Shown here one piece after another: positions 38,296-57,200 of a DNA stretch of 60,101 bases. The DNA is taken from contig NZ_LIKT01000026.1 of assembly GCF_001294455.1 (NCBI RefSeq), positions 1 through 60,101 of the forward strand, in the 5' to 3' direction. A program made the position numbers and the translations under genes. The notes beneath the pieces are model-generated. The model was not told the origin of the DNA. It saw only the letters and a program-made list of their open reading frames with translations, and did not search any database. Position 1 is the stretch's first letter; every line of letters begins with the position of its first letter. This DNA comes from Phaeobacter sp. 11ANDIMAR09 (GTDB lineage: Bacteria; Pseudomonadota; Alphaproteobacteria; Rhodobacterales; Rhodobacteraceae).

Positions 38296-39366
38296 TTATC
38301 CCGCCAGCTGCGCCGGGCGCGCGCGGCGCTGCTTTACTGCTTCGGCCAGTTTGCGCAGCTCCGCCACGGTATCTTCCCAGCCGATACAGCCATCGGTGAC
38401 CGACTGACCATAGGTCAGCTCCCCCTTGCCCAGATCCTGACGCCCGGCGACCAGATGGCTCTCGATCATCACCCCGGTAATGCGCTGCTCCCCCGCACGC
38501 AGCTGGGTGCTCACATCCGCCAGCACCAGCGGCTGCTTCGCTGGATCTTTGTCGCTGTTGGCATGGCTGGCGTCGATCATCACATGGCCGCGAATGCCGT
38601 CTTGCTCGGCCTTCTGACAGGCCGCATGAACAGACCCCGCGTCATAGTTGGTGCCGCCACCACCGCGCAGGATGATATGGCAATCGGGGTTGCCGCTGGT
38701 GGCCGCAATCGCCGCGCGGCCATTTTTGGCCAGGGCCATGAAATGATGCGGATGCGCCGAGGACCGCACCGCATCAATGGCGATCTGCACATTACCACGG
38801 GTGCCGTTTTTGAAACCCACCGGACAGCTAAGGCCCGAGGCCATCTCCCGGTGGATCTGGCTCTCAGTGGTGCGCGCGCCAATGGCCGCCCAGGCCATCA
38901 GATCCGACAGGTACTGCGGCACCGCCGTATCCAGGAACTCGGTCCCAACCGGCAGCCCCATCTGGTTGATGTCGAGCAGGAGCTTGCGCGCCATCTCCAA
39001 CCCCTCGTTGATGCGGAAGGAGCCATCGAGCCTGGGATCATTCACCAGCCCCTTCCAGCCGCTGATGGTGCGGGGTTTCTCGAAGTAGACCCGCATCACC
39101 ACTTCCAGCTCACCCGCCAATTCATCGCGCAGGTGTTTCAGCCGTTCAGCGTAGTCCAGCGCCGCCTTGGTGTCGTGGATCGAACAGGGCCCGACCACAA
39201 CGATCAGCCGGTCATCCCCGCCGCGCAGCACCCTTTGGATATCGGCGCGGCTATCCAGCACGGTTTCGCTGGCCAGATCATTACTGGGCAGTTTCGCCGC
39301 CAGTTCATCTGGCGAGATCAGTTCCTGCATATCGGTGATACGGAGGTTTTCGATTTTGGTGGTCAT
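38296..39366 (-). CDS. aroG: 3-deoxy-7-phosphoheptulonate (DAHP) synthase, class I
   Basis: 356 residues of the AroFGH type. It condenses phosphoenolpyruvate and erythrose-4-phosphate, the first committed step to chorismate, tryptophan, phenylalanine and tyrosine. Family segments include VVVGPCSIHDTKAAL, MRVYFEKPRT, WKGLVNDPRLDGS, GARTTESQIHREMASGLS, VGFKNGT and the late MIESHLVAGRQDL. Which aromatic amino acid inhibits it cannot be told. Its expression is very probably set by the leader ORF and terminator directly upstream. It follows no other gene on the minus strand and is separated by a hairpin from the protease gene downstream. Confidence 0.95.
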   Translation of the reverse strand: MTTKIENLRITDMQELISPDELAAKLPSNDLASETVLDSRADIQRVLRGGDDRLIVVVGPCSIHDTKAALDYAERLKHLRDELAGELEVVMRVYFEKPRTISGWKGLVNDPRLDGSFRINEGLEMARKLLLDINQMGLPVGTEFLDTAVPQYLSDLMAWAAIGARTTESQIHREMASGLSCPVGFKNGTRGNVQIAIDAVRSSAHPHHFMALAKNGRAAIAATSGNPDCHIILRGGGGTNYDAGSVHAACQKAEQDGIRGHVMIDASHANSDKDPAKQPLVLADVSTQLRAGEQRITGVMIESHLVAGRQDLGKGELTYGQSVTDGCIGWEDTVAELRKLAEAVKQRRARPAQLAG

Positions 39367-39412: not shown

Positions 39413-39442
39413 CAAAAAAACCGCCATCTGCTGAGGGCGGTT
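39413..39442 (-). terminator. rho-independent attenuator terminator in the aroG leader
   Basis: Minus-strand AACCGCC (39442-39436) pairs with GGCGGTT (39425-39419) over a 10-base loop and runs straight into seven Ts. It lies about 50 bases before the aroG start and 30 bases after the leader ORF stop. A GGCGG inside the leader ORF (39502-39498) could pair with the CCGCC arm instead, giving an alternative, antiterminating fold. Confidence 0.85.
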
Positions 39443-39471
39443 GGTGTGGTATCTGCTGTTGCGCGCTTATG

Positions 39472-39552
39472 TCATCTGCACGCCAAGACCCCTCCGTCCG
39501 CCTGTCGGCCCGGATAAAAATAAAACCAGATTGCAGCATAGGTTTGGGTCAT
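39472..39552 (-). CDS. aroG leader peptide (aromatic amino acid attenuator)
   Basis: A 26-codon ORF on the minus strand, ATG 39552 to TGA 39474-39472, reading MTQTYAAI, then Trp-Phe-Tyr-Phe-Tyr at codons 9-13 (39528-39514), then PGRQADGGVLACR. It has six aromatic residues, five of them consecutive, which is hard to explain by chance. It sits between a weak promoter candidate (TTGTAC 39659-39654, 18-base spacer, TAGGCT 39635-39630) and a terminator before aroG. When charged Trp, Phe or Tyr tRNA is scarce, the ribosome would stall in this run and favour the antiterminator, turning on DAHP synthase. A clear Shine-Dalgarno sequence is lacking, the one weak point. Function is inferred from architecture. 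Confidence 0.78.
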   Translation of the reverse strand: MTQTYAAIWFYFYPGRQADGGVLACR

Positions 39553-39710
39553 GTTGGCGACGCTAGCGGAGATTCGGAAGGGTGTCATTAGGAAAGTTGG
39601 AAGTGGTACTTTTAGAACCGTACTAGCCAAGCCTAGAAAACACTTCGACAAAAGTACAACGTCAGCTCTGAGCCCACTTTGACCAATCCGGCGCTCCCAA
39701 TGAGCGTCTA
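39553..39710. promoter_or_regulatory. upstream region of the aroG leader
   Basis: Holds the promoter candidate described with the leader peptide (39630-39659, minus strand) and no gene. The sequence is AT-richer than the surroundings. Confidence 0.3.
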
Positions 39711-40103
39711 CTATCGTTGCTTGATCAAATCTGCCAGATAGTCAATTTCTTCGCTCGACCTGAAGTGGCCTTCCGCCAACCAAACGACCGCCTCGCATAC
39801 CTCTTGAACATCGATGCGCTGCGCTTGTTCGCCGCAAGCAATTTGTGCAAAATTGTCGGGGAAACACAGAAATATGCTCCGTCTACCAATATCATCTATG
39901 AAGCGAGTAAACCCAGACTGAGCCAGAACGTTGGCAGCTCTTTCAAGATCACCCGCACACTTGTTGTCGAATGTTTCGACCAGTCCATCAATGGCATGAC
40001 GTTCGGTGTGGTAGTGAAGGTCAAAAATACAATTCGCTAATGCCAAAATTCGCCCTGTGTGCGAATCCTCTGGTCTGGCTTTCCAAGGCGGTAAATCATG
40101 CAT
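39711..40103 (-). CDS. hypothetical protein
   Basis: Not recognised. About 130 residues from ATG 40103 (MHDLPPWKAR), with two notable motifs: FDLHYHTERHAIDG in the middle and a C-terminal EEIDYLADLIKQR. Acidic and without signal peptide or membrane helix. The frame is open upstream to 40430, but that part translates into Arg/Pro/Ser-rich sequence over a complex hairpin region and is unlikely to be coding. No clear ribosome binding site precedes 40103. The coding status is uncertain; it fills the space between the aroG leader and the terminator of the ribosomal cluster. Confidence 0.45.
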   Translation of the reverse strand: MHDLPPWKARPEDSHTGRILALANCIFDLHYHTERHAIDGLVETFDNKCAGDLERAANVLAQSGFTRFIDDIGRRSIFLCFPDNFAQIACGEQAQRIDVQEVCEAVVWLAEGHFRSSEEIDYLADLIKQR

Positions 40104-40266
40104 TTTGACATAATGTCGAGCCGCGGCAATAACCGCAACTATGCCTTTACCTCGATGGAACGGTCTTTGAGCGGGTCTCAAGGAACGGCAGCAAAGTCCG
40201 CATTGTAAACCTTCAATTGCTGTAGAAATCAAATGTTTAGTGAATTGCCAAAGTCTTGCTTTGGCA

Positions 40267-40318
40267 GCGCCCGAACCGCCCCCACGGGGCGGGCGCTTTG
40301 CTTCCCCCCTCGGTTCGG
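40267..40318. repeat. complex inverted-repeat region
   Basis: Two overlapping inverted repeats. GCGCCC...GCCCC pairs with GGGGC-GGGCGC (40267-40296, with a five-base bulge), and CCGAACCG (40271-40278) pairs with CGGTTCGG (40311-40318). They can form mutually exclusive folds. They lie upstream of the hypothetical gene 39711-40103 and past the rplQ terminator. Confidence 0.5.
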
Positions 40319-40393
40319 ACGCGGTGGTTTTGTGAAGCGTCGGAAAACCTCCAAAGCAGCTAGACGGCTGAATACTGGCCTCTGACACATTCC

Positions 40394-40427
40394 AAAAGAA
40401 AAGCCCCCGCTCCAGCGGAGCGAGGGC
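40394..40427 (-). terminator. terminator of the rpsM-rpsK-rpoA-rplQ operon
   Basis: The stem GCCCTCGCTCC/GGAGCGGGGGC (one mismatch, three-base loop) is followed on the minus strand by TTTTCTTTT, 28 bases after the rplQ stop. Strong rho-independent terminator. Confidence 0.9.
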
Positions 40428-40454
40428 CATGCCATCTGACGATGTCAGAGAGTC

Positions 40455-56868: not shown

Positions 56869-57200
56869 GCTTTCTGTCTTCCGTTTAGCGTGCGGACCCT
56901 TAGGTTTTTGTCTTTGGACCCGCTATGTGTAAGCCCCCCGTCCGCCTGTCCCACAGGGACAATGACTACTAAGGTGGCCAGTCTTTAGGGCCCCGAAGGT
57001 CCCCAGCTCATGTGTTTCCCACAAAGATAACGGCCCCAGAACGAATCTGAGGCCAGTAGGATTGGGCGGATGTAGCAGGGTTGGAGGTGGGTGGCAATGG
57101 AGAATAGTGCGAAGCTTGAACAACCGTGTCTTGCGGCGAGGGAAAGCTAGCACTAGCCTTTTCACCGATAAAGCAGATTTCAAATAGGAGATTTCAATAA
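56869..57200. other. intergenic region between rplB and the orphan gene
   Basis: 332 bases between divergent genes. It must carry the rplB promoter, but I find no convincing hexamer pair. The ~120 bases closest to 57201 are AT-richer and seem to belong with the orphan gene. Confidence 0.35.

Follow-up and report, generated by a model that had tools for sequence, protein, structure and literature searches.

What does a short open reading frame (ORF) with five consecutive aromatic codons do immediately upstream of aroG, the type I DAHP synthase gene of Phaeobacter sp. 11ANDIMAR09? The window, the whole stretch of 60,101 nucleotides analysed here, carries this arrangement on its minus strand from the putative promoter to the end of aroG (39588-38296). 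A first-pass annotation had proposed ribosome-mediated attenuation, based on the ORF, a rho-independent terminator before the gene, and a GGCGG within the ORF able to compete for the CCGCC arm of that terminator. The layout consists of the following features:

39583-39588, minus strand: −35 box, ATGACA
39560-39565, minus strand: −10 box, TAGCGT, placed by alignment, 17 nt from the −35 box and 7 nt 5′ of the leader ATG
39472-39552, minus strand: leader peptide ORF, predicted to be leaderless, with transcription predicted to start at or within 1-2 nt of 39552
39514-39528, minus strand: codons 9-13 (Trp-Phe-Tyr-Phe-Tyr), the proposed stall site
39498-39502, minus strand: GGCGG, the proposed antiterminator 5′ arm within the ORF
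39451-39454, minus strand: AGAU, inner part of the predicted antiterminator, pairing with GUCU
39413-39442, minus strand: intrinsic terminator with U-tract (arms 39442-39436 and 39425-39419)
38296-39366, minus strand: aroG, type I DAHP synthase

Translation of the ORF (39552-39472; 26 codons plus stop) gave MTQTYAAIWFYFYPGRQADGGVLACR* in the list of ORFs for the window, with Trp9-Phe-Tyr-Phe-Tyr13 at 39528-39514, confirming the frame and run first noted. The terminator, AACCGCC-CTCAGCAGAT-GGCGGTT-TTTTT, begins at 39442, and its gap from the leader stop codon is 29 nt. Its loop of 10 nt between the two arms is presumably why a simple terminator scan of the window, with a loop limit of 8, did not list it. 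The gene that follows starts at 39366 and is identified as a type I DAHP synthase by PF00793 (E = 3.9e-91) and TIGR00034 (E = 4.1e-154). GGCGG (39502-39498) is the complement of the terminator's CCGCC; a 5-base complement like this was matched by 49% of 200 shuffles of the window leader, and the stability of the whole leader RNA was unremarkable (z = −1.62, equalled in 14 of 200 shuffles). Since the complement is within chance in the window alone, the antiterminator pairing rests on comparison among loci.

Several neighbouring elements were also observed. AGATACCA and GTATCCGCC, located 5′ and 3′ of the terminator (~39454-39403, minus strand), could form a helix enclosing it and are found again in several Rhodobacteraceae, and a CCGCC downstream of the terminator is a second possible partner for GGCGG. 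Between rplQ and the leader, a 239-codon ORF (39711-40430, minus strand) matches no Pfam family; its overlap with a terminator-like hairpin after rplQ suggests that its start may be misassigned. Elsewhere in the window, 56871-56979 (minus strand) matches the Rfam L2-Alphaproteobacteria ribosomal protein leader (46.8 bits).

The conservation of the layout was assessed with an automatic test for at least four aromatic residues in six codons of a short ORF, followed by a terminator. Upstream of aroG, 66 of 102 fetched loci passed, compared with 6 of 1020 sequences shuffled under a first-order Markov model and 0 of 612 downstream stretches. These loci comprised 80 named loci (the best 80 of at least 591 candidates) and 22 family or genus loci; L103, an aroG fragment lacking its 5′ end, was omitted and L056, with 58 nt upstream, was scored negative. 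Leader-positive named lineages include Devosia, Bradyrhizobium, Mesorhizobium, Phenylobacterium, Xanthomonas and kin, Dyella, Rhodanobacter, Burkholderia and kin, Cupriavidus and Oxalobacteraceae. Among the 102 loci, the test failed at aroG of enterics, Vibrionaceae, Methylotenera, Azoarcus, Thauera and Chromobacterium. L051, on a metagenome-assembled contig labelled Anaerolineae, was kept negative although an aromatic ORF and a hairpin are readable there: upstream of its type I aroG are an ATG ORF whose product begins MSRYFSFFSWYGYF and a GC-rich, strong inverted repeat (~1297-1460), possibly representing a similar leader outside Proteobacteria or a mis-binned contig.

A second sample gave a comparable picture, with 36 of 68 aroG loci passing the run and terminator test. 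It was drawn from 398 genomes of the phylum, 225 of them with aroG, and consisted of the 28 best-scoring new loci and 40 hand-picked among the matches listed, with species that may overlap the 80 named loci. By family, the leader in this sample was all-or-none, save for one family with two of three. All 56 alphaproteobacterial loci with an intact 5′ end pass (22 family or genus, 13 named and 21 second-sample loci, counted by hand, with overlap between collections possible). On a quick tree of 92 AroG proteins, the leader label requires 5 changes versus 27.6 when labels are shuffled. Ten loci were omitted from the tree (nine near relatives of kept rows, and L056), and L015 was labelled positive by hand after its upstream ORF and terminator were read.

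In the family Rhodobacteraceae, type I aroG is patchy, occurring in 15 of 295 genomes, each of a separate genus, and in 9 of 12 genomes of the genus, one merely as a fragment. Where the gene is present, the leader accompanies it: the frame and its aromatic codons, whose conservation the first-pass annotation had left to be checked, are kept at 15/15 family loci and 8/8 genus loci whose 5′ end is intact (the locus in the window counts in both sets), as well as at two named Leisingera loci. The exact run motif was absent from all three genus genomes without aroG and from G305, in which only an aroG fragment was found; as a search pattern it is too strict for some true leaders, among them L101, whose codon 13 is Cys. 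The window genome also encodes a class II DAHP synthase (genome G000, contig C22:18371-19681), beside which the type I gene, with its putative attenuator, is an addition that is patchy in the family. A second leader copy was sought before this class II gene and nothing comparable was found: four aromatics in six codons occurred there only in a TTG-initiated frame of 9 codons that overlaps the start of the gene.

A covariance model (R1), built from 21 Rhodobacteraceae leaders, linked the leader to aroG: in the 295 family genomes it gave 12 strong matches (E below 1e-20), 12/12 directly before aroG. One of nine weak matches is the true aroG leader of G130 (E = 5.1e-4), and the other eight (E = 2.7e-5 to 0.0072) were rejected as leaders, because, read individually, they resemble ordinary GC-rich terminators or, in one case, a match within a long ORF. 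R1 misses the leaders of two aroG genomes, G138 and G234, both plain by eye. Outside its training set, R1 matched at the leader position in 20 of 23 sources (missing L051, L093 and L094) and, when leader-positive loci alone were scanned, in 26/26 (L143 and L151 left out), and 25 of the 36 leader-negative loci yielded one match, with E = 0.31. Many of these transfer scores (20-32 bits) overlap those of ordinary genomic terminators (24-33 bits), and R1 therefore backs common descent of the leaders only moderately.

The aromatic run is the part of the peptide that is kept. Codons 9-13 of the 21 aligned Rhodobacteraceae leaders make up 105 cells, 100 of which hold Trp, Phe or Tyr (hand count). Variants among relatives are WFYFY, WYFFY, WYFYY and WYYFY, with FYWF in three genera; aromatic identity is therefore kept while Phe and Tyr swap places within the run, and the peptide around the run changes between lineages. 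This pattern bears on two alternatives. One is a dual system, combining attenuation with a terminated leaderless RNA or a 26-residue peptide that acts in trans, as do the products of the Sinorhizobium meliloti trp leader, which has the architecture of leaderless ORF and attenuator that is predicted here (available text of PMC7298713 and PMC10117765). We regard such an addition as improbable here, as the peptide differs between lineages outside the run, and part of its sequence is explicable by RNA pairing. Considerably less probable is that a ligand-binding riboswitch, T-box or protein-binding leader governs the terminator and the aromatic ORF is incidental. Such a leader would share the layout of a terminator before a biosynthetic gene, and some RNA outside the run is conserved in Rhodobacteraceae, but retention of the run amid a varying peptide and exchanging Phe and Tyr argues against it. 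So does Rfam 15, which returned no match for the window leader stretch at E up to 10 and no gathering-score match in the leader loci of 17 relatives (18 loci scanned with the window).

A ribosome translating the run, the preferred reading, needs a way to start. SD-like 4-mers occur in front of 61 of 66 aroG starts but of only 1 of 66 leader ATGs, so the first-pass annotation was right that a clear Shine-Dalgarno sequence is missing, but it had counted this as a weak point, which the promoter boxes would remove. GACA of the −35 box begins −35 to −33 from the ATG in 33 of 35 alphaproteobacterial loci (26 at −34); 32 of the 35 have the TA of the −10 box at −13 or −12. Judged from these positions, the leader is probably leaderless, with a predicted transcription start at its own ATG, and would need no Shine-Dalgarno sequence. 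Transcription of S. meliloti trpL likewise starts at the ATG (available text of PMC7298713), and leaderless mRNAs in Bradyrhizobium japonicum have an extended −10 element, TGnTA (available text of PMC4842269). In Xanthomonadales, a TGnTA-like −10 element can also be read from the sequence close to the leader ATG; for Burkholderiales, the transcription start was not readable from upstream sequence. That the terminator merely stops read-through from the rplQ side, with the aroG promoter downstream and the ORF there by chance or unrelated, is the least probable account, since, although ordinary terminators can have the same GC-rich stem and R1 weakly matches such terminators elsewhere, the promoter boxes precede the ORF, their distance from it hardly varying, and the ORF, run and terminator recur jointly across families with near-constant spacing, and not so in controls.

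The edge of a ribosome is usually 12-13 nt from the A-site codon. Counted from the first base of the last aromatic codon, GCGG, the core of the competing arm, occurs at 15, 18 or 21 nt in 87 of 102 leaders (66 from the first sample and 36 from the second); a ribosome with its A site at that codon would thus end just short of this core. The duplexes that leaders form with their own terminator arms average −15.21 kcal/mol versus −13.75 kcal/mol for swapped arms, and 0 of 2000 swaps were as good (73 distinct pairs). When swaps were confined to four broad groups, which partly controls for relatedness, the pooled count was again 0 of 2000, with 11, 215, 202 and 0 of 2000 per group, making the swap test alone weak in two of the four. 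The spacing and the arm comparison together back the proposed competition of GGCGG for CCGCC. A per-sequence shuffle test, from which L015 is absent, was passed at 0.05 by 33 of 66 leaders and failed by that of the window (0.49), and it was set aside as evidence for the competing arm.

Substitutions in the two arms give a mixed picture. The antiterminator pairing is kept as AGCGG facing CCGCU, instead of GGCGG:CCGCC, in L093 (Rhodobacteraceae) and in L165 and L167, which share a genus in a different alphaproteobacterial family. In L069, by contrast, the leader arm is AGCGG while the terminator has an unchanged CCGCC, and the AGCGG change is therefore not strictly coupled to the terminator arm. 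The alignment of Rhodobacteraceae suggested in the first-pass annotation bore out the run and the terminator, which has one double change and keeps 7/7 pairs in all 19 distinct rows, but compensatory change did not extend to the antiterminator: the GGCGG:CCGCC pairs are invariant, and the remaining antiterminator covaries no better than shuffles, with helix 2, the one that includes AGAU, paired in 88.6% of cells and its covariation at shuffle level. A consensus 5′ stem from RNAalifold (GACCC:GGGUC) was not retained as a firm protector stem, since no pair has a double change.

The part of the RNA not covered by a ribosome was folded in transcripts ending before the terminator 3′ arm. With the ribosome at the last aromatic codon, 71% of the terminator 5′ arm in the window is sequestered at this stage, compared with 3-5% for a ribosome near the stop codon. 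Group averages, taken for six groups, are 0.54-0.72 for a ribosome at the last aromatic codon and drop to 0.06-0.25 when it is eleven codons further on (Oxalobacteraceae n = 2), and footprints of 10, 13 and 16 nt gave the same direction. The minimum free energy fold for a ribosome at Tyr13 and a transcript ending at the loop also uses GUCU:AGAU, a predicted pairing that would explain the conserved GATACC before the terminator. Equilibrium folding was rejected as proof of a switch: in the window the terminator is favoured even when a ribosome occupies either of the last two aromatic codons (P = 0.75-0.84, with 0.75 the lowest value reached), and a switch must therefore be kinetic. With no ribosome, or with a stall upstream of the run, the 5′ arm is likewise 0.71 sequestered (P(term) 0.96 without a ribosome), so that no protecting stem for the untranslated state is evident.

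The first-pass annotation had further suggested that the leader integrates all three aromatic amino acids. Trp, Phe and Tyr are indeed all present in the run of 52 of 66 leaders. However, folding of Rhodobacteraceae leaders indicates that, on average, the terminator is weakened most by a stall on either of the final two aromatic codons and less by one at the Trp codon, and equal sensing of the three amino acids is therefore not established; in the Corynebacterium glutamicum AroR leader, tyrosine availability is without effect (available text of PMC11802643).

Together, the conserved run, terminator, competing arm and spacing strongly support ribosome-mediated attenuation at aroG. The parts, their conservation and spacing, the promoter position and the pairing fit are computed results, and from them we infer, with high confidence, a ribosome-mediated transcription attenuator of aroG that works by the classical mechanism. 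The predicted transcription start, translation, stalling, termination and the amino acids that count all belong to this proposal, which would run as follows. RNA polymerase would start at the leader ATG or no more than a base or two away, and a ribosome would load on the bare 5′ end with no Shine-Dalgarno sequence required. With ample charged aromatic tRNA, the ribosome would pass the run and cover or pass GGCGG, allowing the CCGCC/GGCGG terminator to form before aroG. When aromatic aminoacyl-tRNA is scarce, the ribosome would stall on the Trp-Phe-Tyr-Phe-Tyr codons, and GGCGG, emerging ahead of it, would pair with CCGCC before the terminator 3′ arm is made, resulting in read-through into aroG.

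A broader and more speculative reading, which we consider possible and rather less likely to be true than not, is that an old, uncatalogued RNA family spanning Alphaproteobacteria, Xanthomonadales and Burkholderiales controls entry into the whole aromatic pathway through a single codon run that senses three charged tRNAs, and that in Alphaproteobacteria leaderless initiation synchronises translation with transcription, with no usual pause hairpin. If leaderless initiation is part of the device, the ribosome would load on the 5′ end as the polymerase leaves the promoter.

A term search of the available main text of a broad survey of premature terminators (PMC2965389) finds no mention of aroG, aroF or DAHP. 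Among the matches listed in open-access literature, there was no such leader before proteobacterial aroG. The proteobacterial aroG leader appears to be ordinary in mechanism, widespread and uncatalogued. Such a leader would show how many marine, soil and plant-associated proteobacteria gate carbon entry into the shikimate pathway, and the collection is a natural set for probing leaderless attenuation and multi-amino-acid sensing at a single stall site.

The aroR transcript of C. glutamicum is reportedly leaderless, as Neshat et al. are said to have found in 2014. Its existence corrects the first-pass statement that no leader of this type had been described: the DAHP synthase gene aroF of C. 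glutamicum has the AroR leader with Phe-Tyr-Phe, and is controlled by ribosome-stalling attenuation (PMC11802643, PMC4046766) in response to Phe (PMC11802643), according to the available text of these sources. Both leaders carry consecutive aromatic residues before a DAHP synthase gene, whereas AroR is from a different phylum and the run here is longer and includes Trp. Computational predictions have also been made at gammaproteobacterial DAHP synthase genes, namely attenuators before Vibrio aroF-tyrA type operons (PMC1173090) and regulatory RNAs before Shewanella aroF/aroH (PMC2659441). Unlike the aroG leader, these are given without a leader peptide of this type in the available text, and three Vibrionaceae aroG loci fail the leader test. 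E. coli offers the classical cases of attenuation by aromatic aminoacyl-tRNA in its trpL-trpE, pheL-pheA and pheST leaders, whereas its DAHP synthase genes aroH and aroF are described as controlled by the DNA-binding repressors TyrR and TrpR (available text of PMC11802643), and enteric aroG loci fail the leader test. The trpL leader of trpE(G) in S. meliloti differs in its Trp codons as sensor, its length of 14 residues, its target gene and its additionally trans-acting products, and yet, in the available text of PMC7298713 and PMC10117765, it is an alphaproteobacterial leaderless ORF that begins at its ATG and acts by ribosome-mediated attenuation, as is predicted for the aroG leader.
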